Shown here piece by piece: positions 1,549 to 51,489 of a stretch of 53,717 nucleotides of DNA. The notes below the pieces were generated by a model. It had not been told where the DNA came from. It saw only the letters and a list, made by a program, of their open reading frames with translations, and did no database searches. Position 1 is the stretch's first letter. The number at the start of each line of letters is the position of its first letter. Source of the DNA: Spirochaetaceae bacterium (GTDB lineage Bacteria; Spirochaetota; Spirochaetia; SZUA-6; Bin103); assembly GCA_028821475.1 (NCBI GenBank), contig JAPPGB010000088.1:4075-57791 (forward strand), in the 5' to 3' direction. The position numbers and the translations under genes were made by a program.

Positions 1549-1670
1549 CGGTCTACCAGCATCAGTGTACCCGCGTCGGCTCGTTCACTCACTCGTAGTG
1601 CGAACGGTCGCTCATGACGCACTCCGTCATTCATGACGCGTTCGTCATTCATGACGCGTTCGTCATTCAT
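1545..1670 (-). CDS. 41-residue ORF made of MNDERV repeats between two permeases
   Basis: A short frame starts at an ATG 8 bp inside the end of the upstream permease gene and stops at TGA overlapping the ATG of the downstream permease by 4 bp. Its first 18 residues are MNDERV-MNDERV-MNDGVR, followed by HERPFALRVSERADAGTLMLVDR. It has no recognisable domain. Its position suggests a role in translational coupling of the two permeases rather than a functional protein. It could also be only a spacer carrying repeats. Confidence 0.35.
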   Translation of the reverse strand: MNDERVMNDERVMNDGVRHERPFALRVSERADAGTLMLVDR

Positions 1671-1673
1671 GAC
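1617..1673. repeat. 18-bp tandem repeat with internal dyads between permease genes
   Basis: Three near-identical 18-bp units (GTCATTCATGACGCGTTC) run across the stop codon of the upstream permease. Each contains the small inverted repeat GTCAT-TC-ATGAC, so the array can form a series of short hairpins on either strand. The unit length keeps one minus-strand frame open through all copies. Confidence 0.9.
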
Positions 1674-3006
1674 GCAGGCTCTGCACCACGTCGAGACGCA
1701 GCGCGCGGCGCGCCGGCACCAGGGCGATGGCCATGCTCGCAAGCACCCCAAACACAACCGCGGTCGCCATGGTGCCGGGATTCCAGGCGCCGCGGAACTC
1801 CCCGGTGACGCGGTAGCCGATACTCACGTCGCCGTATAGTCCGCTCACGTCGATTCCCCAATTGACCAGCCAGAACGTCGCGGCTGCACCGAGGACGAGA
1901 CCCGCCAATGACCCGAGCAGTCCGATAATGCCCGCCTCGAACACCATCGTCGCCCGGACCGCCGCGTCGTCCATGCCAAGGGCGCGCATCATGCCGAACT
2001 CACGGATTCTCTCGTACACCGCGATCAACATGGTGTTTGAAATACCCACGGCGGCGATCAGAAATATGAGAAACAGCAGCATGGCGTTGCTCGAACTCTT
2101 GGACTCCATCAACGCCAGGTAGTCACGCGCGATCTGTGGCCACCCGACCACGGCGACGTCTGCAAACCGTGCTCCAAGCTGCGCATTCAAACGCTCGATC
2201 TCGCGGCTCAGGAAGGCGCCGCCGGGAACGGCTATCGGGCGCCCGAGCACGGAAGGCAACGCGCCGAGCGCAATCTCCGTTACCCCGTCCATCTCGAGGT
2301 CGTATTGGGCGATGTCGAGCGGCAGGTAGCCCACCCCTCGATTGATGGTCGGATTGGCACTGAGCAGGATACCCACCAGCTCCAGCTCCAACACCTGCAT
2401 CGCTCCATGCCGGGTGCGGGTCCGAACCTCGACGAAATCGCCGACCGACAATCCCAGGTCGTCGGTCGTCCAGGAGCCCAGAATGAGCCCCGGCATACCC
2501 GCTTCCACGTATGAGCTGCCCGGCAACAGAGCGTCGCGCAGCCGGAACACCTCCTCGTCCGTATCCGGATCGATGCCGACAAACCGAATCGGCAATGACC
2601 CCTCGCCGAAGAACAACTCGCCGACAAAGCTGATGCGCGGGGTGTTGGCGATGCCGCGCTCGGTCAGTGCGTTCGTGATCGGCACATAGTCGGCCAGCTC
2701 GTGCTTCAGCGCCACCCGGTCCAAGTCCTCCAACTGGGCGCTCGTCACCACCTTGCCGGAGCCGGTCTCATACCAGACAAGATTGCGCTGAGACTCCTGG
2801 TCGATGCCCCCCAACATGGAGTCCATGAAAATCAGCACGGCAACGCTGAACGCCAGGGCTATCGTGGTAATCACGGTGCGGCGCCGGTGCCGGCTCAGAT
2901 TCCGCCACGCCAGCCGGAGCAGGAACTTCGCGTCACCACGCCCCGGCGACGACATCGCCGGGGACGCCGGGGCGGCTGTCACCGCGTTCGACGAAAGGGA
3001 AGCCAT
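1663..3006 (-). CDS. ABC transporter permease, FtsX/LolC-E/MacB family
   Basis: This 447-residue permease is the paralogue of the downstream gene. After a Ser/Ala/Pro-rich start it has the basic segment LLRLAWRNLSRHRRRT and a first helix near IALAFSVAVLIFMDSML. A large periplasmic domain follows, then C-terminal helices around NAMLLFLIFLIAAVGISNTMLIAVYERIREFGMMRALGM, the conserved cytoplasmic loop of the family. I chose ATG at 3006 because it lies 8 bp after the ATPase stop and gives a normal family length; the open frame continues further upstream only by overlapping the ATPase gene. It probably pairs with the second permease and the ATPase in one complex. Confidence 0.9.
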   Translation of the reverse strand: MASLSSNAVTAAPASPAMSSPGRGDAKFLLRLAWRNLSRHRRRTVITTIALAFSVAVLIFMDSMLGGIDQESQRNLVWYETGSGKVVTSAQLEDLDRVALKHELADYVPITNALTERGIANTPRISFVGELFFGEGSLPIRFVGIDPDTDEEVFRLRDALLPGSSYVEAGMPGLILGSWTTDDLGLSVGDFVEVRTRTRHGAMQVLELELVGILLSANPTINRGVGYLPLDIAQYDLEMDGVTEIALGALPSVLGRPIAVPGGAFLSREIERLNAQLGARFADVAVVGWPQIARDYLALMESKSSSNAMLLFLIFLIAAVGISNTMLIAVYERIREFGMMRALGMDDAAVRATMVFEAGIIGLLGSLAGLVLGAAATFWLVNWGIDVSGLYGDVSIGYRVTGEFRGAWNPGTMATAVVFGVLASMAIALVPARRALRLDVVQSLRHE

Positions 3007-3014
3007 CGCCGATC

Positions 3015-3734
3015 CTACCGGGCGGCGTCCGCGGTAGCCGGCGCACGGCCCTCGCCGGTGCGCGTCTCGTCGCGGACAATCCGGCCGTCCTGCAACCGTA
3101 CCAACCGCTGCGCGTAGTCCATGACCATGGCATCGTGGGTGGAGAACAGGAAGGTGGTGGAGCGGCGGCGATTGAGCGTGCGCATCAGGTCCAGCAACCC
3201 CTCGCCGATCTCGGAGTCCACGTTCGCGGTGGGTTCGTCGGCCAGCACGATGTCCGGGTCCTTCACCAGCGCGCGTGCGATCGCCACCCGTTGCTGTTGA
3301 CCGCCCGACAGCTCGCCCGGGCGACGGTCGGCCATGTCGCTCAACCCGACGTCGTCGAGCATCGCCAGGGTGCGGTCGCGCACCTGCTTCGGGTCGCGGG
3401 TGACCAGCGACAACGCAAACGAGACGTTCTCGTAGGCGGTGAGTACCGGGATGAGATTGAACGACTGAAAGATGAAGCCGAGACGATGACGGCGAAACAG
3501 GGCAAGCTGTTTGCGGTTCAGGTCCGATACACGTTCTCCGCCGATCACCACCTCGCCGCTGGTCGCCGTGTCCAGACAGCCAACCAGATTGAGCAGAGTG
3601 GTCTTGCCGGAACCGGAGGGGCCGGCAATCGCCAGAAACGCGCCACCATCCACCCGCAGACTGACACCGCGCAGAGCCGCGACCTCGGTGCTGCCGCTGC
3701 GATACACTTTGGTCACCCTGTCCACTGATATCAC
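3015..3734 (-). CDS. ABC transporter ATPase, LolD/MacB type
   Basis: This 239-residue nucleotide-binding subunit has Walker A GPSGSGKT near residue 40, Q-loop FQSFNLIPVLTAYENV, signature LSGGQQQR, Walker B IVLADEPTANVD and H-loop FSTHD. The sequence GCLDTATSGEVVIGG is typical of LolD and MacB ATPases. I placed the start at GTG 3734 because GGAGG sits five to six bases upstream and the protein then begins directly with the domain (VISVDRVTKVYRSGS). It is the first gene of the three-gene operon and powers the two FtsX-type permeases. The substrate cannot be told from sequence; lipoprotein release or efflux are both possible. Confidence 0.95.
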   Translation of the reverse strand: MISVDRVTKVYRSGSTEVAALRGVSLRVDGGAFLAIAGPSGSGKTTLLNLVGCLDTATSGEVVIGGERVSDLNRKQLALFRRHRLGFIFQSFNLIPVLTAYENVSFALSLVTRDPKQVRDRTLAMLDDVGLSDMADRRPGELSGGQQQRVAIARALVKDPDIVLADEPTANVDSEIGEGLLDLMRTLNRRRSTTFLFSTHDAMVMDYAQRLVRLQDGRIVRDETRTGEGRAPATADAAR

Positions 3735-4038
3735 AAGACACCTCCCGGCGTGTCCGGTGGAGCCGTCATCGTTGTGCACGCACCCCTGACGGCGCTGCAA
3801 CGGTGTATACGCGGGACCAGCTTACGCATCGAGTCGTGACCGCGGCAACCAATCTTCACACAAATGGTGAAATGTGACCGGAGATCGGCGACCGCACCGG
3901 GCTGGCGGCGTGCGGAAGTGGAGCGGATCGGGATGGGAGAACGACCACGGCCGGCGCCCGGCGTGCACCGGGCGCTCGGCACTCTGTCTGGTCGGCCGCC
4001 GCCGCTAGGACCGCCTCAGGGGCGGCCGTAGTGGATAA
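3735..4038. other. Intergenic region upstream of the ABC operon
   Basis: About 300 bp lie between the ATPase start and the end of the upstream small gene. The likely promoter of the ABC operon lies here, but I see no convincing -35/-10 pair. A G+C-rich hairpin near 4010-4027 could end the small gene's transcript, though it has no T-run. An imperfect dyad (TCACA to TGTGA) occurs near 3855-3876, in the orientation opposite to a CRP site. Confidence 0.4.
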
Positions 4039-4554: not shown

Positions 4555-5694
4555 ATGACCATTACGTCACTGAAGACGGTTTCGGTAGCGGGCACCAAGA
4601 CGTGGAACTACGTGCGGCTGGAGACCGACACCGGCATCACCGGCACCGGAGAAGCGCACCCGGGAGCAGGCATCGGCGACCTGATCGAGCGTCGCCTGGC
4701 GCCAATGTTGATCGGCGCGGATGCGCGCAACGTGGAGCCGCTGCAGCGGCGGATGCTGGCGTCGAGCACCGGAGATTCGGCCGGCGGCATGCTGGTGGGG
4801 GCGATCGGCGGAGTAGAAACCGCGCTCTGGGATGTTGCCGGCAAGGCCCTCGGCGTACCGGCTTACCGGCTGCTCGGCGGTGCCTACCGCGACCGAATTC
4901 GCCTCTACGCGGACGTCGGACGCGGCGTCGCCATGGCGAACACGCCGGCAAGCTGGGCGGCACGCGCGCGCGAGGCCGCCGCCGAAGGATTCGATGCCCT
5001 CAAGTTCGACATCGACCACTCCGCCGATGAATTGAGCCATGACCTGCTGGCGCGCGGACTGAGCCTGGCGGAACTGGAGCGCATGACGGCGCTGGTGGCG
5101 GCGGCACGCGAGGGGGCCGGTGACCGCGTCGATCTGGCGATCGATTGTCACGGCATATACCAGGTGCGCGACGTGCTGCTGCTGGCCGAACGTCTGACCC
5201 CGTTTCGCCTCATGTTTCTCGAAGACCCGGTACCCCCGGAAAACACCGCCGCTCTGGCCAAGGTCACGCGCAGCACGCCGATTCCGATCTGCACCGGCGA
5301 GTGGCGCTACCGGTGCGACGGATTTCGCGACCTGATCGAACAGCAGGCATGCGACCTGCTGCACGTGGATGTCGCCGCCACCGGAGGCATGTCGGAAGCC
5401 AAGAGGATCGCCGATCTCGCCGACCTCTACTACATGCCGTTCGCGGCCCACAACATCACCTCGCCGCTGGGCCTCGTCGCCAGCGCGCACGTGTGTGCGG
5501 CGGTGCGCAACCTGAACAGCATGGAACTGCCGTATCACGGTGACCAGGTCGCGTGGCGCTGGGACCTGGTGCGCAGCCCCGAACCGCTGATCGACCGCGG
5601 GCGGTTCGTCGTGCCGCGTGGACCCGGTCTCGGTGTCGAGCTCGACGAAACCGTGGTCAACGCCCACCTCGCGCCCGGATCCGCGCCGCTGTAG
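4555..5694 (+). CDS. Mandelate racemase/muconate lactonizing enzyme family protein
   Basis: This 379-residue enolase-superfamily enzyme has the usual capping domain (about residues 1-120) and a TIM-barrel domain. Metal-binding acids are visible in DLAIDCHG (Asp), FLEDPVPPEN (Glu) and ICTGEW (Glu). The catalytic strand-2 motif reads ALKFDID, a K-x-D form, and the late histidine is in FAAHNITSPLG. This pattern fits sugar-acid dehydratases such as galactonate- or gluconate-type enzymes rather than racemases with a K-x-K motif; the exact substrate cannot be assigned. It would act in the cytosol, turning an aldonic acid into a 2-keto-3-deoxy acid. A DapA-family aldolase that could use such products lies far away at 46972. 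The gene stands alone and appears to be leaderless. Confidence 0.9.
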   Translation: MTITSLKTVSVAGTKTWNYVRLETDTGITGTGEAHPGAGIGDLIERRLAPMLIGADARNVEPLQRRMLASSTGDSAGGMLVGAIGGVETALWDVAGKALGVPAYRLLGGAYRDRIRLYADVGRGVAMANTPASWAARAREAAAEGFDALKFDIDHSADELSHDLLARGLSLAELERMTALVAAAREGAGDRVDLAIDCHGIYQVRDVLLLAERLTPFRLMFLEDPVPPENTAALAKVTRSTPIPICTGEWRYRCDGFRDLIEQQACDLLHVDVAATGGMSEAKRIADLADLYYMPFAAHNITSPLGLVASAHVCAAVRNLNSMELPYHGDQVAWRWDLVRSPEPLIDRGRFVVPRGPGLGVELDETVVNAHLAPGSAPL

Positions 5695-5782: not shown

Positions 5783-5838
5783 CGGATCAGGGGAACTCGG
5801 CCGCCCGCGCGCTGTGGGCACCATGGCGCGCACCACCA
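5783..5838 (-). pseudogene. Relic of the VOC gene 3' end, third copy
   Basis: This stretch aligns over its whole length with the 3' ends of the VOC copies at 7071 and 8543, sharing blocks such as GCGCGCTGTGG and CACCATGGCGCGCA. The gene body is missing. It lies directly before the duplicated lipoprotein leader, exactly as the larger relic does before the second lipoprotein copy. It therefore looks like an older, more decayed repeat unit. Confidence 0.55.
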
Positions 5839-5892
5839 CGACGTCGTGTGGGTCGGGTAGTCGGTCAACATTGCATCACGTCAGAGCACTGA

Positions 5893-5911
5893 TACTACGA
5901 AATACGTAGTA
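5893..5911. promoter_or_regulatory. Inverted repeat in the lipoprotein leader
   Basis: TACTACG and CGTAGTA form a perfect 7-bp inverted repeat with a 5-bp spacer about 40 bp before the start codon. In the second copy (7371-7389) the left arm has decayed to TGCTACA while the right arm is intact. It may be an operator or a small RNA hairpin. A TATAAA box follows at 5936-5941. Confidence 0.45.
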
Positions 5912-5951
5912 TCCTGATGTTGTGCTCCGTGGTGGTATAAACTCCTTCGCC

Positions 5952-7070
5952 ATGAACGTCACACTCATCAGGCAACCTGCCATGGCGCTGACCGTGGCAA
6001 TGGTCCTGTCTCTGTCGCTAGCGGGCTGCAGTGCGGCCACTTCAGGGACGGGAGGGACTACGAGCTCCGCCGCCGAAGCGCCCCTACCGGAGCCAGTTCC
6101 AACGCCGCCTGAGCCCGAGTCGCCGCCCGAGCCCGAGTCGCCGCCTGAGCCCGAGTCGCCGCCCGAGCCCGAGTCGCCGCCCGAGCCCGAGTCGCCGCCA
6201 CCCTCCACCGGCGTGCCTTCCGACACGCCGGGCACGCCGAGGTTCCCGGCACGATACTGCCAGTTTTTGTTCTACGACGATCCGTACAAGCGCCCTCCCG
6301 CCCCGTATTCAGCCTCTACGGCCCCGCCGACGGAATACTCTCCATCTCTGGTGCTTCGGCTGGGGTCGACACCCGACGACGAGCCGCAAAAACGGAGCCA
6401 AATAACCGTGACGTGGCCGACGGCGACCAGCACGCCCTGGCCCGTCGAAACTTACGAACTGGCCTGGACTCGCACAGGCGACCCGTTCCCGGCTCCGACG
6501 ATCATGCAGGTGTACCAGCAGGGGCAGGAGCGGTTCATCGTCACGAACTACACCATGACGGGGCTGAATGCAGGGACGGAGTACAAGGTACGGGTTCGCC
6601 CGAGATATGAAGGCGCCGACTATGAAGCAGGCGAGAGAGTCAGCGGATGGTCGCCTGTCTTCACCGTGCGCACGATGGATCCTCTGCCCCTGCTGGACTG
6701 CACCGAGGGCCAGCACCTGCGCGATCCGCCGTGGGTTACGTTCTACACTGACCGACACGGTATGAGCTATAGGTGCGACCAGACGCATCCTGCCTTCCAG
6801 ACCTACCGGTATCTGGCTCCTTGGAGCGCGCTCAGTTGTGCCGGCGCTGGTGGCCCCCCGTTCGAACCGAGGATCCGGCCCGCTTCGTTGCGGGTACGCA
6901 TCGCCGGGAGGGGCGATGTGCAAGTCGACCCGGATTCCACGCATGGCCAGCGTCGGCTTGCGGTATTGGGCCTGAGTGTGACCGTTGGGGGCCAGCGGTG
7001 CGAACTGACCGATCTGTTGTATCTCACGATCGACGGATTGGCTGCCTTCGACTCGAAGTGCGCCGAGTAG
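5952..7070 (+). CDS. Secreted lipoprotein with fibronectin type III domain, copy A
   Basis: The N-terminus MNVTLIRQPAMALTVAMVLS is a lipoprotein signal peptide ending at lipobox LAGC, so the protein should be lipid-anchored outside the inner membrane. An Ala/Ser/Thr stretch follows, then a proline-glutamate spacer with five PEPESP hexapeptides and a fibronectin-III-like domain. The domain runs from about ITVTWPTATSTPWPVETYELAWTR to SGWSPVFTVRTMD and includes the typical GLNAGTEYKVRVRPRY strand. The C-terminal third has four cysteines and no family I recognise. I chose ATG at 5952 because the second copy has only this start. It is about 75% identical by eye to the next copy. A surface binding or adhesion role is an inference. 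Confidence 0.85.
   Translation: MNVTLIRQPAMALTVAMVLSLSLAGCSAATSGTGGTTSSAAEAPLPEPVPTPPEPESPPEPESPPEPESPPEPESPPEPESPPPSTGVPSDTPGTPRFPARYCQFLFYDDPYKRPPAPYSASTAPPTEYSPSLVLRLGSTPDDEPQKRSQITVTWPTATSTPWPVETYELAWTRTGDPFPAPTIMQVYQQGQERFIVTNYTMTGLNAGTEYKVRVRPRYEGADYEAGERVSGWSPVFTVRTMDPLPLLDCTEGQHLRDPPWVTFYTDRHGMSYRCDQTHPAFQTYRYLAPWSALSCAGAGGPPFEPRIRPASLRVRIAGRGDVQVDPDSTHGQRRLAVLGLSVTVGGQRCELTDLLYLTIDGLAAFDSKCAE
6108..6197 (+). repeat. 18-bp coding repeat for PEPESP
   Basis: Five head-to-tail 18-bp units lie in the lipoprotein's spacer, with only silent C/T variation. The second lipoprotein has a degenerate spacer here without clear repeats (AETPPETETPGPSQ), so the array probably expanded after the gene duplication. 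Confidence 0.9.
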
Positions 7071-7077
7071 CGCGGGA

Positions 7078-7334
7078 TCAGGTCAACTGGACCGTGCCGC
7101 GCGCTGTGGCCACCATGGCGCGCAGCCCGGGCCGATCCGCAGCCCGCACCGCCACCGGTACCCCGAGGGCGCGCAGCGCCGGACCGACGGCTCCCGGTTC
7201 GGGAGACTGCACCTCGAGGTTCAGCAACCGGCAGCCCGCCGGGGCAGATGCCGCGGGCGAGTCCACGGCGTCCCAGTCAATGAGAAAGGAGCACGTTGTG
7301 GCTACCACGCCCTTCATGGCTGTCGCCGGGAGCG
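7078..7334 (-). pseudogene. Internally deleted copy of the VOC gene
   Basis: The minus strand encodes the last 70 or so residues of the VOC protein at 8550 (FLIDWDAVDSPAASAPAGCRLLNLEV onward) almost unchanged. Upstream it jumps at about 7283-7290 to a short piece matching 9111-9162 of the intact gene. The start codon and about 355 bp of the middle are missing. The breakpoint lies at similar GAAAGGA/GAATGGA strings. It cannot encode the full domain. Confidence 0.85.
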
Positions 7335-7338
7335 ATAC

Positions 7339-9162
7339 TCGGTCAACATTGCATCACGTCAGAGCACTGATGCTACAAAACACGTAGTATCCTGATGTTG
7401 TACTCCGTGACGGTATAAACTCCTGCGCCATGAATGTCACACTCATCAGGCAGCCTGCCATGGCGCTGACCGTGGCAATGGTCCTGTCGCTGTCGATCGC
7501 GGGCTGCAGTGCGGCCACTTCCGGGACGGGAGGGGCCCCGTCCTCCGCCGCCGAAGCGCCGCTCCCGGAGCCGGTGCCAGCGCCGCCCCAGGCAGAAACG
7601 CCGCCCGAGACAGAGACGCCGGGCCCGAGCCAGCCGACGGATGGCGACACTCCTCCCGCCGCCGCGCCGCCAACGCCGCCACCCTCCACCGGCGTACCTT
7701 CCGATACGCCGGGCAGGCCGACGGGCCCGAGACGATTCTGCAAGGCCTTGTACTACGACGATCCGCACAAACGCCCACCTACCCCGTATTCAGCCTCTAC
7801 GCCCGCGCCGGCGGAACACTCTCCACCTCTGGTGCTTCGGCTCGGTGAGACAAACGACGGCAAGCCGCAAAAGCGGCACCAAATATGGGTGGCGTGGCCG
7901 GGCGCGACCAGCACGCCCTGGCCCGTCGACACCTACGAACTGGCCTGGACTCGCGCAGACAACCCGTTCCCGGCTCCGACGATCATGCAGGTGTACCAGG
8001 TGGGGCAGTCGCGAATCATCACCACGAACTACGCCATTACGGGGCTGCAAGCAGGTACGGAGTACAAGGTGCGGGTTCGCCCAAGGTATGAAGGCACCGA
8101 CTATGAAGCAGGCGTGAGAGTCAGTGCGTGGTCGCCTGTCTTCACCGTGCGCACGATGGATCCTCTGCCTTTTCTGCGCTGCACCGAGGGCCAGCTTGTG
8201 CTCGATGCGCCGTGGTTCACGCTCTCCACCAGGCCAGACGGCAGCCAGCAAGCGGAGTGCGACGAGAAGCATCCTGCCTTCAAGACCTACCGGGATCTGG
8301 CTCCGTGGAGCGCAAGTAGTTGTGGCGCCGTTGCCTGGCGCGAACCGAGGATCCAGCGCGCTTCGCTGCGGGTGCGCATCGCCGGCAGGGGCGATGTGCG
8401 AGCCTACCCGGATCCCACATCCGGCTCGCTTCGGGTATTGGGCTTGCGTGTCTCCGTTGGGGGCCGGTCGTGCGAACTGACCGATGTGCTGTATCTCACG
8501 ATCGACGGATTGGCTACCTTCGATACGACGTGCGCCGAGTAACGAGGGATCAGGTCAACTGGACCGTGCCGCGCGGTGTGGCCACCGTGGCGCGCAGCCC
8601 GGGCCGATCCGCCGCCTGTACCGCCACGGGTACACCGAGGGCGCGCAGCGCCGGACCGACGGCTTCCGGTTCGGGAGACCGCACCTCGAGGTTCAGCAAC
8701 CGGCAGCCCGCCGGGGCAGATGCCGCGGGCGAGTCCACGGCGTCCCAGTCGATGAGGAATGGAACCGTCCCTCCGAACGGCAATTCCTGGTGTTGGCACA
8801 GGTGCCAACGCAACAGCGAGCCGTCGCTCCGGCGGCGGGTTCCGGGCGCCACCGGTCCCGGGTCGTAGCCGCGTGCCACGGCGTGCGCACGCCAGCGTTC
8901 CAGCCGAACCTCCGCCGCCGGCTGCGCCCCGCCGGCGCGACCCGGTTGTGGTTTCCCGCTGGTGCGGGACGGTGGCGTCTGGCATGCATGCACCGCGAAG
9001 GTGACCAGGCGGGGCCTGGCGAGCGAGTCGAGGCCGAACGGCCGCGGTTGCCGCGGCGGCGGTTGAGCCGGATCGGGGGCAATGATTTCGAGGTACGCGT
9101 CGCCCCCGAGTGAAAGGAGCGCGTTGTGGCTACCACGCCCTTCATGGCTGCCGCCGGGAGCG
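7339..9162. repeat. Tandem duplication unit B, lipoprotein plus intact VOC region
   Basis: This second unit starts with the same 91-bp leader as unit A. It contains the second lipoprotein gene followed by the full-length VOC gene. Homology with unit A is lost inside VOC where unit A is deleted, and ends near GCCGCCGGGAGCG. Confidence 0.85.
7430..8542 (+). CDS. Secreted lipoprotein with fibronectin type III domain, copy B
   Basis: This 370-residue paralogue of the previous lipoprotein has the same signal peptide and lipobox (LSIAGC), the same fibronectin-III-like domain (WPGATSTPWPVDTYELAWTR to SAWSPVFTVRTMD) and a matching cysteine-bearing C-terminal region. The proline-rich spacer differs in length and sequence and lacks the PEPESP array. 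The upstream leader, with TATAAA 10 bp before the ATG, is conserved, and neither copy has a clear ribosome binding site. It converges with the intact VOC gene; the two stop codons are only about 7 bp apart. The function is unknown beyond likely surface exposure. Confidence 0.85.
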   Translation: MNVTLIRQPAMALTVAMVLSLSIAGCSAATSGTGGAPSSAAEAPLPEPVPAPPQAETPPETETPGPSQPTDGDTPPAAAPPTPPPSTGVPSDTPGRPTGPRRFCKALYYDDPHKRPPTPYSASTPAPAEHSPPLVLRLGETNDGKPQKRHQIWVAWPGATSTPWPVDTYELAWTRADNPFPAPTIMQVYQVGQSRIITTNYAITGLQAGTEYKVRVRPRYEGTDYEAGVRVSAWSPVFTVRTMDPLPFLRCTEGQLVLDAPWFTLSTRPDGSQQAECDEKHPAFKTYRDLAPWSASSCGAVAWREPRIQRASLRVRIAGRGDVRAYPDPTSGSLRVLGLRVSVGGRSCELTDVLYLTIDGLATFDTTCAE

Positions 9163-9251
9163 GGGGTAACGCCGAGCAACTCGGCGATCCGTGCAACCCC
9201 CGCCGACAGCTCCGGCACCCCGTATACCAGGTGGTCGACTGCCGCCGTCAT
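8550..9251 (-). CDS. VOC family (glyoxalase-like domain) protein
   Basis: This 233-residue protein begins MTAAVDHLVYGVPELSAGVARIAELLGVTPAPGGSHEGRGSHNALLSLGGDAYLEII, the opening beta-alpha-beta module of glyoxalase-like (PF13468-type) VOC proteins. The histidine in VDHLVY and the glutamate in YLEII are candidate metal ligands. The second half keeps FLIDWDAV and LLNLEVRSPEP, the paired module. The reaction is unknown; family members act on small lactones, aldehydes or aromatic substrates. It is the last gene of the fructosidase operon, 9 bp after the isomerase stop, so a role in handling a sugar-derived intermediate is possible. Confidence 0.8.
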   Translation of the reverse strand: MTAAVDHLVYGVPELSAGVARIAELLGVTPAPGGSHEGRGSHNALLSLGGDAYLEIIAPDPAQPPPRQPRPFGLDSLARPRLVTFAVHACQTPPSRTSGKPQPGRAGGAQPAAEVRLERWRAHAVARGYDPGPVAPGTRRRSDGSLLRWHLCQHQELPFGGTVPFLIDWDAVDSPAASAPAGCRLLNLEVRSPEPEAVGPALRALGVPVAVQAADRPGLRATVATPRGTVQLT

Positions 9252-9260
9252 CTGTCCGGC

Positions 9261-10043
9261 CTAACCGATTCCCATGCCTTGCAGAAAGCGCAGGCTCGCC
9301 GCCAGTTCCGCGAACGGGTCGGCTCCGTAGGTCTGGTCCTGCTCGACCAGCGCCCACTCCACGCCCGCGCCGCGGCACGCCGCCACGATGCGCGGCCAGT
9401 TGAGATTGCCGGCGCCGACCGGTGCGAAGCGCTGGGTACGGTCGGGCAGCACCACCATGTCCTTGAAGTGGATGACCGGCTGCCGCGCACCGAGGTCGCC
9501 GATCCACTGCGCCGGGTCGGCGCCGCCGGCGGCCAGCCAGTATACGTCCAGCTCCGCGCAGAGATGTTCGGGAGGAGCCGTCTCGTACACCTGGTGCAAC
9601 CAGGTGGTGCCGCCGTAGCGGACCAGCTCGTGGCTATGGTTGTGGTAGGAGAAATCGATCCCGGCCGCGGCAAGCCGCTCGGCAACAGGCGCCAGTTCCG
9701 CGGCAAACCGCGCCGCGCCGCCGGCCCGGAAGTACTCCTTGGGCAGACCGCCGATCGCCGCGTGCCGGCAGCCCCACATCTGGTGGACTTCGATGAGGTG
9801 CCCGAGGTCGTTGCGGAACTCATCCCAGCCGAAGTGGGTGGCGACGATCTCCAGGCCGTGGTCGCGCGCCATCCGCGCCACCTCTCGCGGCGCAACCGGA
9901 CCGAAGGCGGATACCTGCACCGCGCGGTAGCCCATCTCGGCTACCTTGCGCAGCGTCTCCGCCACGTCGCTCGCCGTCTGCGTGTAATCGCGCACGGTAT
10001 AGAGCTGCGCTCCGGCCTTCAATTCCTGAACAGCGTCACCCAC
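9261..10043 (-). CDS. Sugar phosphate isomerase/epimerase (xylose isomerase-like TIM barrel)
   Basis: The 260-residue protein starts GDAVQELKAGAQLYTVRDYTQTASDVAETLRKVAEMGYRAVQVS, the standard first strand and helix of AP-endonuclease-2-type sugar isomerases such as IolE/IolI relatives. Metal-site residues are suggested by HFGWDE, EVHQMW, YHNHSHEL, ELDVYW and HFKDM. I chose GTG at 10043 because it is 8 bp after the GH32 stop with GAGGAG upstream; a longer frame would run into the GH32 gene. Family members interconvert keto- and aldo-sugars or dehydrate inosose. Its place between a fructosidase and a VOC protein points to sugar breakdown. Confidence 0.85.
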   Translation of the reverse strand: MGDAVQELKAGAQLYTVRDYTQTASDVAETLRKVAEMGYRAVQVSAFGPVAPREVARMARDHGLEIVATHFGWDEFRNDLGHLIEVHQMWGCRHAAIGGLPKEYFRAGGAARFAAELAPVAERLAAAGIDFSYHNHSHELVRYGGTTWLHQVYETAPPEHLCAELDVYWLAAGGADPAQWIGDLGARQPVIHFKDMVVLPDRTQRFAPVGAGNLNWPRIVAACRGAGVEWALVEQDQTYGADPFAELAASLRFLQGMGIG

Positions 10044-10050
10044 TCTTTCT

Positions 10051-11766
10051 TCACTCCTCGTTCCAGATCGACGCAAGGCGCCACAGGTCCAGGCAACGCA
10101 GCCGCGCGCTCCCGCCGCGCGCCGCCACCGCCAGTTCGTTGGCGTCATCCACCGGAACGACGCCGAGCGGGATCACCACCTCGCCGTCGGCGCCGAAAAC
10201 CTCGATCGATGCGCGGTCCAGCAAGACCTGGAGACGCAGCAGTCCGCGCTGCAACTCGATCGCGGTCCCGGCCGGATTGGCGGAGCGTCGCCGCCCCTGG
10301 GTGCATGACAACTTGCGGGTCCCGGCATCATATACGATCCAGATGCCGCGCAGCATCACCGCAACGCAATCCGCGCCGCCGGGCTCCAGTTCCACCACCA
10401 CTTCAGCGGTGTCCGGCATGCGCGCCAGCGGAACGACTGCCCAACCACCATGCCGCACCGGCACGCCGAGGAAGGGAGCTGCCGGCGGCGGCACGGCGTC
10501 GGGATCCAGCATCAGCCCCCGCCAGCGGCGATGGCCGCGGCGCAACGTCTGCAGTTCGCGTGCCGGCGCCGAGCACAGCCGCACGCCGCGCGCCGTGCGG
10601 CGCAGGGACAACTCGCAGGGGAACGTCATGCAATGGGTAAACGGCATGCCCGGCGGCGTGGTGAGCAGCCAGGCGATCTGCAGTACGCGCCCGTCGTCCG
10701 CCGGAAGGTCGCTCCAGGTCTGGGCGGCGTACGCGGTGCCCAGCGGCTGCTGGCGCAGTTCCCGGTCTCCGTATTCCGCGGCGTCGGGGACGAAGCGTTC
10801 GCCGTCGAAGCTGCCCAGGAGGTAGCGCGTGTCCGCCGCCCACAGTACCCAGCGCAGGTCGTTCGGATCGCCGTCCACCGCAAGCTGAAACAGGTCGGGG
10901 CAACTGTGCGTGGGGAGGCGCACCTCGTGACGCCGGGTCCAGTCGCGCAGGTTGGGGGAGGTGAGCAGGGCGAACCGGTCGCCATCCAGATACAGCACCA
11001 TCACCCAGCAGGATTGCGGACGGTGCCAGAACACGCGCGGGTCGCGGTTGAGGCCGGCAATGTGCGGCAGCACCGGATTGTCGGGGTGCTTGCGCCAGGT
11101 GCGGCCGCGGTCGTTGCTGTACGCCAGGCACTGCGTGAACGGGCGTATCTCGTCGGCGGAGCGGCCGTCGGCGGTGTACAGCGCCACCAGCGGCGGATCG
11201 TCGCCGCTCTGCAAACCGCTGGTGTTGTGCCAGTCCACCACTGCCGACCCGGAGTACATGGCGCCGTGTTCATCGGGCGCCAGGGCCGGCGGAAGCTCCT
11301 CCCAGTGCACCAAGTCGCGGCTCACGGCGTGTCCCCAGAACTTCAGGTAGTGGCCAATGTCGGTGCCGAACGGCTGGTGCTGGTAGAACAGGTGGTATTC
11401 GCCGGCGAAGTACACCAGCCCGTTGGGGTCGTTGATGAAGCCGCGCCGCGACGAGAAGTGGAACTGCGGGCGGTAGCGCTCGCGGTAGATGCCGCCGGCA
11501 TCAGGCAGCGCGTCGGCGAGTGCCAGTCCGTCCAGCGCGACGCCCGGCTCCGGACCGCTGTCGAAGGTGAGTTCCAGGGTCTGGCCTCGGAACGGTTCCA
11601 GGTCGGCGAAGGTCACGTAGTCGGGATGCGCCGCGGTCACCTTGGCGGCGAACTTGAGCACCTGCCTGCCGCCGGCGTGCACGCGCATCAACCCGGCGCG
11701 GGCGTCGTAGCGCACCGGGATGTGCAGGTAGCGGCGGTCGATCGCCAACCGGCGGGAGGTGATCAC
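10051..11766 (-). CDS. Glycoside hydrolase family 32 (beta-fructofuranosidase/fructanase-like)
   Basis: This 571-residue protein has a short N-terminal beta domain (about 1-95) followed by a five-bladed propeller. The nucleophile motif is FINDPNG (usually WxNDPNG). The transition-state stabiliser is in LNRDPRVFWH. The general acid motif, normally ECPDLF, reads SCPDLF, so the usual catalytic glutamate appears to be replaced by serine. It also has MYSGSAV and a C-terminal beta-sandwich with LDRASIEVFGADG. No signal peptide is seen, so it should act in the cytosol on sucrose or imported fructo-oligosaccharides if active. The GTG start directly follows the TGA of the PhyH gene. The missing acid residue should make its activity doubtful until checked. 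Confidence 0.85.
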   Translation of the reverse strand: MITSRRLAIDRRYLHIPVRYDARAGLMRVHAGGRQVLKFAAKVTAAHPDYVTFADLEPFRGQTLELTFDSGPEPGVALDGLALADALPDAGGIYRERYRPQFHFSSRRGFINDPNGLVYFAGEYHLFYQHQPFGTDIGHYLKFWGHAVSRDLVHWEELPPALAPDEHGAMYSGSAVVDWHNTSGLQSGDDPPLVALYTADGRSADEIRPFTQCLAYSNDRGRTWRKHPDNPVLPHIAGLNRDPRVFWHRPQSCWVMVLYLDGDRFALLTSPNLRDWTRRHEVRLPTHSCPDLFQLAVDGDPNDLRWVLWAADTRYLLGSFDGERFVPDAAEYGDRELRQQPLGTAYAAQTWSDLPADDGRVLQIAWLLTTPPGMPFTHCMTFPCELSLRRTARGVRLCSAPARELQTLRRGHRRWRGLMLDPDAVPPPAAPFLGVPVRHGGWAVVPLARMPDTAEVVVELEPGGADCVAVMLRGIWIVYDAGTRKLSCTQGRRRSANPAGTAIELQRGLLRLQVLLDRASIEVFGADGEVVIPLGVVPVDDANELAVAARGGSARLRCLDLWRLASIWNEE

Positions 11767-51039: not shown

Positions 51040-51489
51040 ATGAGTACCGCCGCGATGACGTTGTTCGGCGGCGTTGGCTCCGTGGCTGCCATACTAGCCG
51101 TACTGGTGCCGGTGATCCTGGTACAGGATAAGAGCCTCCGCCGCGAGATCGACGCCCAAGGCAGCGCGCTGCGGCGGGAGACCGACACGTTGCGTACGGA
51201 CGTAAGCGACGCACCGGCGGACATGGCAGCCCTGCGTACCGACATGCAGTCGGACGTAGCAGCCCTACGCACAGAGATACGGGCGGACATGGCAGCCCTA
51301 CGTGCCGACGTGCAGTCGGACGTAGCAGCCCTACGTACAGAGATACGGGCGGACATGGCAGCCCTGCGTGCCGACGTGCACGCCGTGAGTGACCGCGTGG
51401 CTCGAATCGAGGGTGCCATGACCGCCGGCGCTTGGCGCCCGAACGGCGCACCGGCGAAGCCTGACAGCACGACAGGACCGGATTCGTAG
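51040..51489 (+). CDS. Membrane-anchored coiled-coil protein with 22-residue repeats
   Basis: This 149-residue protein has an N-terminal membrane helix (FGGVGSVAAILAVLVPVILV) followed by a charged coiled coil. The coil contains repeats of the form DMAALRxDxQSDVAALRTEIRA, 22 residues each, and ends in a Pro/Gly-rich tail. It resembles small bacterial DUF1640-like or LapA-like membrane coiled coils. The repeat unit is exactly 66 bp, so copy number can change without a frameshift. Function unknown; a scaffold at the membrane would fit. Confidence 0.65.
   Translation: MSTAAMTLFGGVGSVAAILAVLVPVILVQDKSLRREIDAQGSALRRETDTLRTDVSDAPADMAALRTDMQSDVAALRTEIRADMAALRADVQSDVAALRTEIRADMAALRADVHAVSDRVARIEGAMTAGAWRPNGAPAKPDSTTGPDS
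51220..51386 (+). repeat. 66-bp coding tandem repeat
   Basis: Two full 66-bp units and part of a third begin with GACATGGCAGCCCT at 51220, 51286 and 51352. They are nearly identical at the DNA level, so expansion is recent. Confidence 0.9.

Follow-up and report, generated by a model that had tools for sequence, protein, structure and literature searches.

The DNA analyzed here (hereafter, the window) is a stretch of 53,717 nucleotides in which two similar lipoprotein genes follow one another, raising the question of how such a pair came to stand in a conserved metabolic neighborhood and how the two copies have evolved since. By comparing the window with itself, we found a direct repeat, 5858-7287 versus 7336-8759 (84.5% identity over 1,440 columns, E = 0), and a second repeat segment, 7284-7334 versus 9112-9162 (96% identity). 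These form two head-to-tail units, unit 1 at 5858-7334 and unit 2 at 7336-9162, in each of which a 94-bp leader and a lipoprotein gene are followed by VOC sequence on the opposite strand. The self-comparison thus confirms the unit-size homology behind an earlier interpretation of this DNA (hereafter, the sequence-only reading), which had proposed a tandem duplication of a lipoprotein gene with part of a VOC gene. With mismatches at 205 of the 1,414 sites aligned between them (14.5%), the unit copies cannot be one identical sequence that the assembler wrote twice. The tandem duplication of this orphan lipoprotein gene is real and well bounded, and the type of event is ordinary and known: a gene duplicated in tandem with debris of a neighboring gene. 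The features of the locus, compared with the corresponding locus (L020) of the sister genome G001, are as follows.

4555..5694, plus strand: enolase-superfamily (MR_MLE) gene, left flank; Pfam MR_MLE_C 7e-58, 88% amino acid identity in L020, syntenic in G001
5784..5832, minus strand: relic of a VOC 3′ end; 86% to 7075-7124 (E 4e-10), 27/28 identical over 5805-5832, spacing as in G001
5858..5951, plus strand: unit 1 leader; 47% GC, palindrome at 5891-5913, TATAAA near the ATG
5952..7070, plus strand: lipoprotein gene 1 (372 aa); lipobox LAGC, (PEPESP)n spacer, Pfam fn3 1.4e-7, orphan C-terminal region
7078..7287, minus strand: left VOC pseudogene, 3′ part; 11/210 differences from the intact copy
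7284..7334, minus strand: left VOC pseudogene, 5′-side part (equivalent to 9112-9162), joined after a 356-bp deletion
7336..7429, plus strand: unit 2 leader; imperfect copy of the palindrome at 7369-7391
7430..8542, plus strand: lipoprotein gene 2 (370 aa); 72% amino acid identity to gene 1
8550..9251, minus strand: intact VOC/Glyoxalase_3 gene; Pfam Glyoxalase_3 (PF13468), 125 bits, 4e-36
9261..10148, minus strand: AP_endonuc_2 (xylose-isomerase-like TIM barrel) gene, right flank; Pfam 2.6e-14, syntenic in L020

The right VOC copy is intact, as the sequence-only reading had held, with a Glyoxalase_3 match at 4e-36. Relative to it, the left copy, which lies in the middle of the three VOC stretches, has an internal deletion: the repeat offset rises from 1,472 before the gap to 1,828 after it, a loss of 356 bp where about 355 bp had been estimated, and the junction falls within a short GAAA-like match. 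This middle copy also ends at the equivalent of position 9162, without the gene's first ~89 bp including the start codon, and is a pseudogene. A third VOC remnant, absent from the sequence-only reading, holds the gene's last ~49 bp at 5784-5832, immediately left of unit 1. Over 5805-5832 it matches the middle copy at 27 of 28 bases; the best unrelated match in the window reaches 18 of 28, and the same stretch scores 19 of 28 at 9117, inside the VOC gene. The remnant begins ~90 bp past the enolase stop, and because the VOC 3′ end in G001 also lies ~90 bp past the enolase stop, it is probably a leftover VOC 3′ end still in its ancestral position. The lipoprotein units sit between this remnant and the surviving VOC gene.

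The sister locus L020 is collinear with the window for the ABC transporter, enolase-family, VOC, AP-endonuclease-like, GH32, PhyH and CinA genes, with 82-88% protein identity for most of them, and has no lipoprotein gene between the enolase-family gene and the VOC gene, supplying the unoccupied state of the locus. In G003, from another genus of the same family, only the AP-endonuclease-like gene is kept in the 12 kb read. Searches for relatives of the lipoproteins gave only short, weak FN3 or Pro-rich matches in the genus, the family (4 genomes), the order (26) and a phylum sample (393), and found none in genome contigs, viral contigs, phages or plasmids; as judged by these searches, both lipoproteins are lineage-specific orphans. 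We favor gain of the lipoprotein in the window's lineage over loss in G001, since the VOC remnant stands on the enolase side. L020 carries two tandem duplications of its own, one of 140 bp in the AP-endonuclease-like gene (8173-8452, 91% identical) and one of 95 bp in the VOC gene (8886-9075, 77% identical), and both genes look frameshifted because neither length is a multiple of three. Barring assembly errors, small tandem duplications thus recur in this neighborhood in two species.

We consider it reasonably probable that the locus as a whole reflects the gain of a lipoprotein gene, its tandem duplication, decay of VOC copies and divergence of two kept genes. In this account, a lipoprotein gene particular to the lineage, together with an AT-rich promoter region of its own, would have been placed between the enolase-family gene and the convergent VOC 3′ end, so that VOC sequence flanked it left and right. 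Tandem duplication of leader, lipoprotein gene and VOC part would have followed, probably via recombination from one VOC copy to another or at short homologies. Of the VOC copies, the middle one would have decayed by the 356-bp deletion and loss of its 5′ end, the leftmost would have shrunk to ~50 bp, and the right-hand copy would have stayed intact; both lipoproteins would have been kept and diverged under little constraint except in the signal peptide and a few blocks. We infer the order of these events and the crossover site, as well as the surface display and binding role of the proteins. At the left-hand informative VOC site, the middle copy and the right VOC gene read AACTG, and the remnant and G001 read AACTC; at the two right-hand sites, the middle copy and the remnant have C at 7104 and A at 7115, and the right VOC gene and G001 have G. 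This pattern, at three sites only, hints that the middle copy is a mosaic of the kind expected from crossover within VOC homology, with a left VOC copy and the right VOC gene as partners. Duplication at short homologies, or gene conversion, is possible instead. The locus offers a well-delimited case, with a species split as the time reference, of a new lipoprotein gene entering a conserved metabolic neighborhood and then being duplicated with debris of its neighbor; as it stands, this is an ordinary tandem duplication of an orphan gene.

Both predicted proteins carry a lipobox, LSLAGC in copy 1 and LSIAGC in copy 2, with Cys26 in each; these conform to L-(A/S)-(G/A)-C, the I at -3 of copy 2 lying inside the accepted range. 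The lipobox suggests that both may be exposed at the surface. It is followed in both by a Pro/Glu-rich spacer, encoded in copy 1 by 5.4 copies of an 18-bp unit, and both proteins have an FN3 domain (PF00041; 32.0 and 32.2 bits against the Pfam gathering cut-off of 25) and a C-terminal region of ~130 residues that matches no family and keeps several cysteines in both copies. A structure predicted from the two-sequence alignment had a mean pLDDT of 39.7, too low to rely on; a Foldseek search of the PDB listed FN3 domains among its matches, none at E below 0.001, and the only match in a PDB sequence search was a 25-residue FN3 stretch. The proteins are probably membrane-anchored binding proteins that would hold the FN3 and C-terminal region on a Pro-rich stalk. 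Another lipobox protein of the same genome (L024 796-2364, on contig C2 of G000) has lipobox and FN3 in common with them, but it contains several FN3 domains and shows distant similarity only, matching the lipoproteins over just ~45 residues.

The leaders (5858-5951 and 7336-7429) are shared as the sequence-only reading had stated, although they measure 94 bp rather than 91 bp. They differ at 8 positions, and their GC content is 47% versus 66% for the window. In unit 1 the leader contains a perfect 9-bp palindrome, GATACTACG-N5-CGTAGTATC, at 5891-5913, and the copy at 7369-7391 in unit 2 is imperfect. Each unit has TATAAA just 5′ of the ATG; the three bases before this motif are TGG in unit 1 and CGG in unit 2. 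The leaders may have a promoter or regulatory role; a promoter/terminator consensus scan found no promoter or terminator. A genome-wide operator was rejected as a reading of the palindrome, since a match with no more than 3 mismatches occurs in the two leaders and nowhere else, and an integron attC reading was dropped by eye, the leader preceding the gene and the core-site motifs not fitting.

The duplication seems to postdate the split from G001 without being recent. The copies are separated by a dS of about 0.2-0.25, compared with 0.46-0.60 for neighboring genes against G001 (dN/dS 0.10-0.20), which makes the duplication old, and at this separation the 'ongoing' diversification by unequal crossing-over put forward in the sequence-only reading is not supported. 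Inside the lipoprotein genes, the longest runs of identity are within expectation (p = 0.12), giving no sign of gene conversion there. The two proteins are 72% identical. They had been said to differ mostly in the proline-rich spacer, but 77 of the 101 amino acid differences fall past its end. Differences are densest within the spacer, and those after it are clustered too (p = 0.013).

By the Nei-Gojobori method, the whole-gene comparison of copy 1 with copy 2 gave a dS of 0.25, a dN of 0.185 and a ratio of 0.74, with regional ratios of 0.17 for the first 50 codons (signal peptide and N-terminus), 0.77 for FN3 and 0.93 for the C-terminal region. With transition bias allowed and the spacer left out, the overall ratio was 0.79-0.95. 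For the C-terminal region the ratio ranges over 0.93-1.21, depending on kappa. Both frames are open, with no premature stop, and all indels in the codon alignment are in frame, although by a rough estimate ~7 stops would be expected among 194 random changes (0 are present); the pair has therefore been kept as two genes. Sequence constraint on them is weak beyond the signal peptide and a few blocks, with dN/dS of 0.74-0.95 against 0.10-0.20 for the neighboring genes, and the one pair compared points to relaxed or diversifying selection on them. 'Diversification' in the sequence-only reading was apt insofar as the divergence is real and the ratios are compatible with it, but relaxed constraint fits as well. 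Relaxed constraint alone, with the copies diverging in place and no diversifying selection, concerns selection and implies the same anatomy as our preferred explanation; we give it slightly less than an even chance. The whole-gene dN/dS stays below 1 under all settings (0.74-0.95) and the gene is an orphan with no conserved relatives, both as this alternative would have it, whereas intact frames, in-frame indels, a strongly constrained signal peptide and a C-terminal ratio that exceeds 1 at some values of kappa fit it poorly.

We regard it as unlikely that the copies were different from the start, as divergent alleles of a hypervariable locus that came from different strains and were joined in tandem via flanking VOC homology. 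The lipoproteins (nonsynonymous 15%, synonymous 19%) are more divergent than the linked VOC copies (11/210 sites, 5.2%), with p about 1e-6 to 1e-5 by all-site counts, and a 70-bp identical VOC tract is longer than expected (p = 0.002). However, in the synonymous-only comparison (0.10 for VOC, 0.19-0.21 for the lipoproteins) the difference is not significant (p = 0.13), and the intact VOC gene is constrained, which lowers VOC divergence. The VOC copies look younger than the lipoproteins, hinting at VOC gene conversion or at separate allele origins to the extent that a non-significant synonymous difference allows. More doubtful still is a hypervariable surface-recognition locus, at which lineage-specific FN3 lipoproteins would be exchanged or recombined between strains via the leader and VOC flanks under diversifying selection and leaders with perfect and imperfect palindromes would differ in expression. 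Should strain data show diversifying selection, they would point to a part in surface recognition within a little-studied lineage. The genome assembly has 183 contigs, but an assembly artefact or strain chimera is very improbable given the 14.5% divergence between copies, the private deletion, the third, decayed VOC relic and the collinearity of both flanks with G001.

Tandem lipoprotein genes are known from S. aureus, where csa1/lpl loci have been called 'gene accordions', csa1 copies are 61-80% identical and recombination can change copy number (PMC7360770). The genes described here are likewise tandem paralogs, at 84.5% DNA and 72% protein identity, but there are only two copies, seen in one genome; they encode FN3 and a Pro-rich stalk, and a fragment of a flanking enzyme gene forms part of the unit. 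Among Pfam and NCBIfam matches with E of 1 or less, no tandem-lipoprotein family model was found. The PFam54 tandem array, dbpA/dbpB and ospC of Borrelia are tandem or paired, fast-evolving lipoprotein genes with recombination (PMC11389397); our pair resembles them in pairing and fast evolution but differs in its high-GC, chromosome-like metabolic context, and no sequence relation was found. Bacterial tandem duplications also arise by illegitimate recombination (PMC11111574), and the present unit is similar in having at most short homology at its ends and carrying along part of a neighboring gene. Unlike those cases, it is old and natural, and it may have been duplicated by way of the longer VOC homology.

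Shorter tandem repeats occur elsewhere in the window. A 15-bp unit array lies at 24-109 (CCGCCAATGAACCAA, 5.7 copies, 98% matches), and an 18-bp tandem repeat at 1612-1675 (TCATGACGCGTTCGTCAT, 3.5 copies) lies at the stop of an ABC permease ORF (1663-3741, minus strand). An array of 33/66-bp units at 51216-51380 falls inside a 149-aa ORF (51040-51489, plus strand), in which a repeat of 11 residues (ADMAALRTDMQ / SDVAALRTEIR) follows an N-terminal hydrophobic segment.
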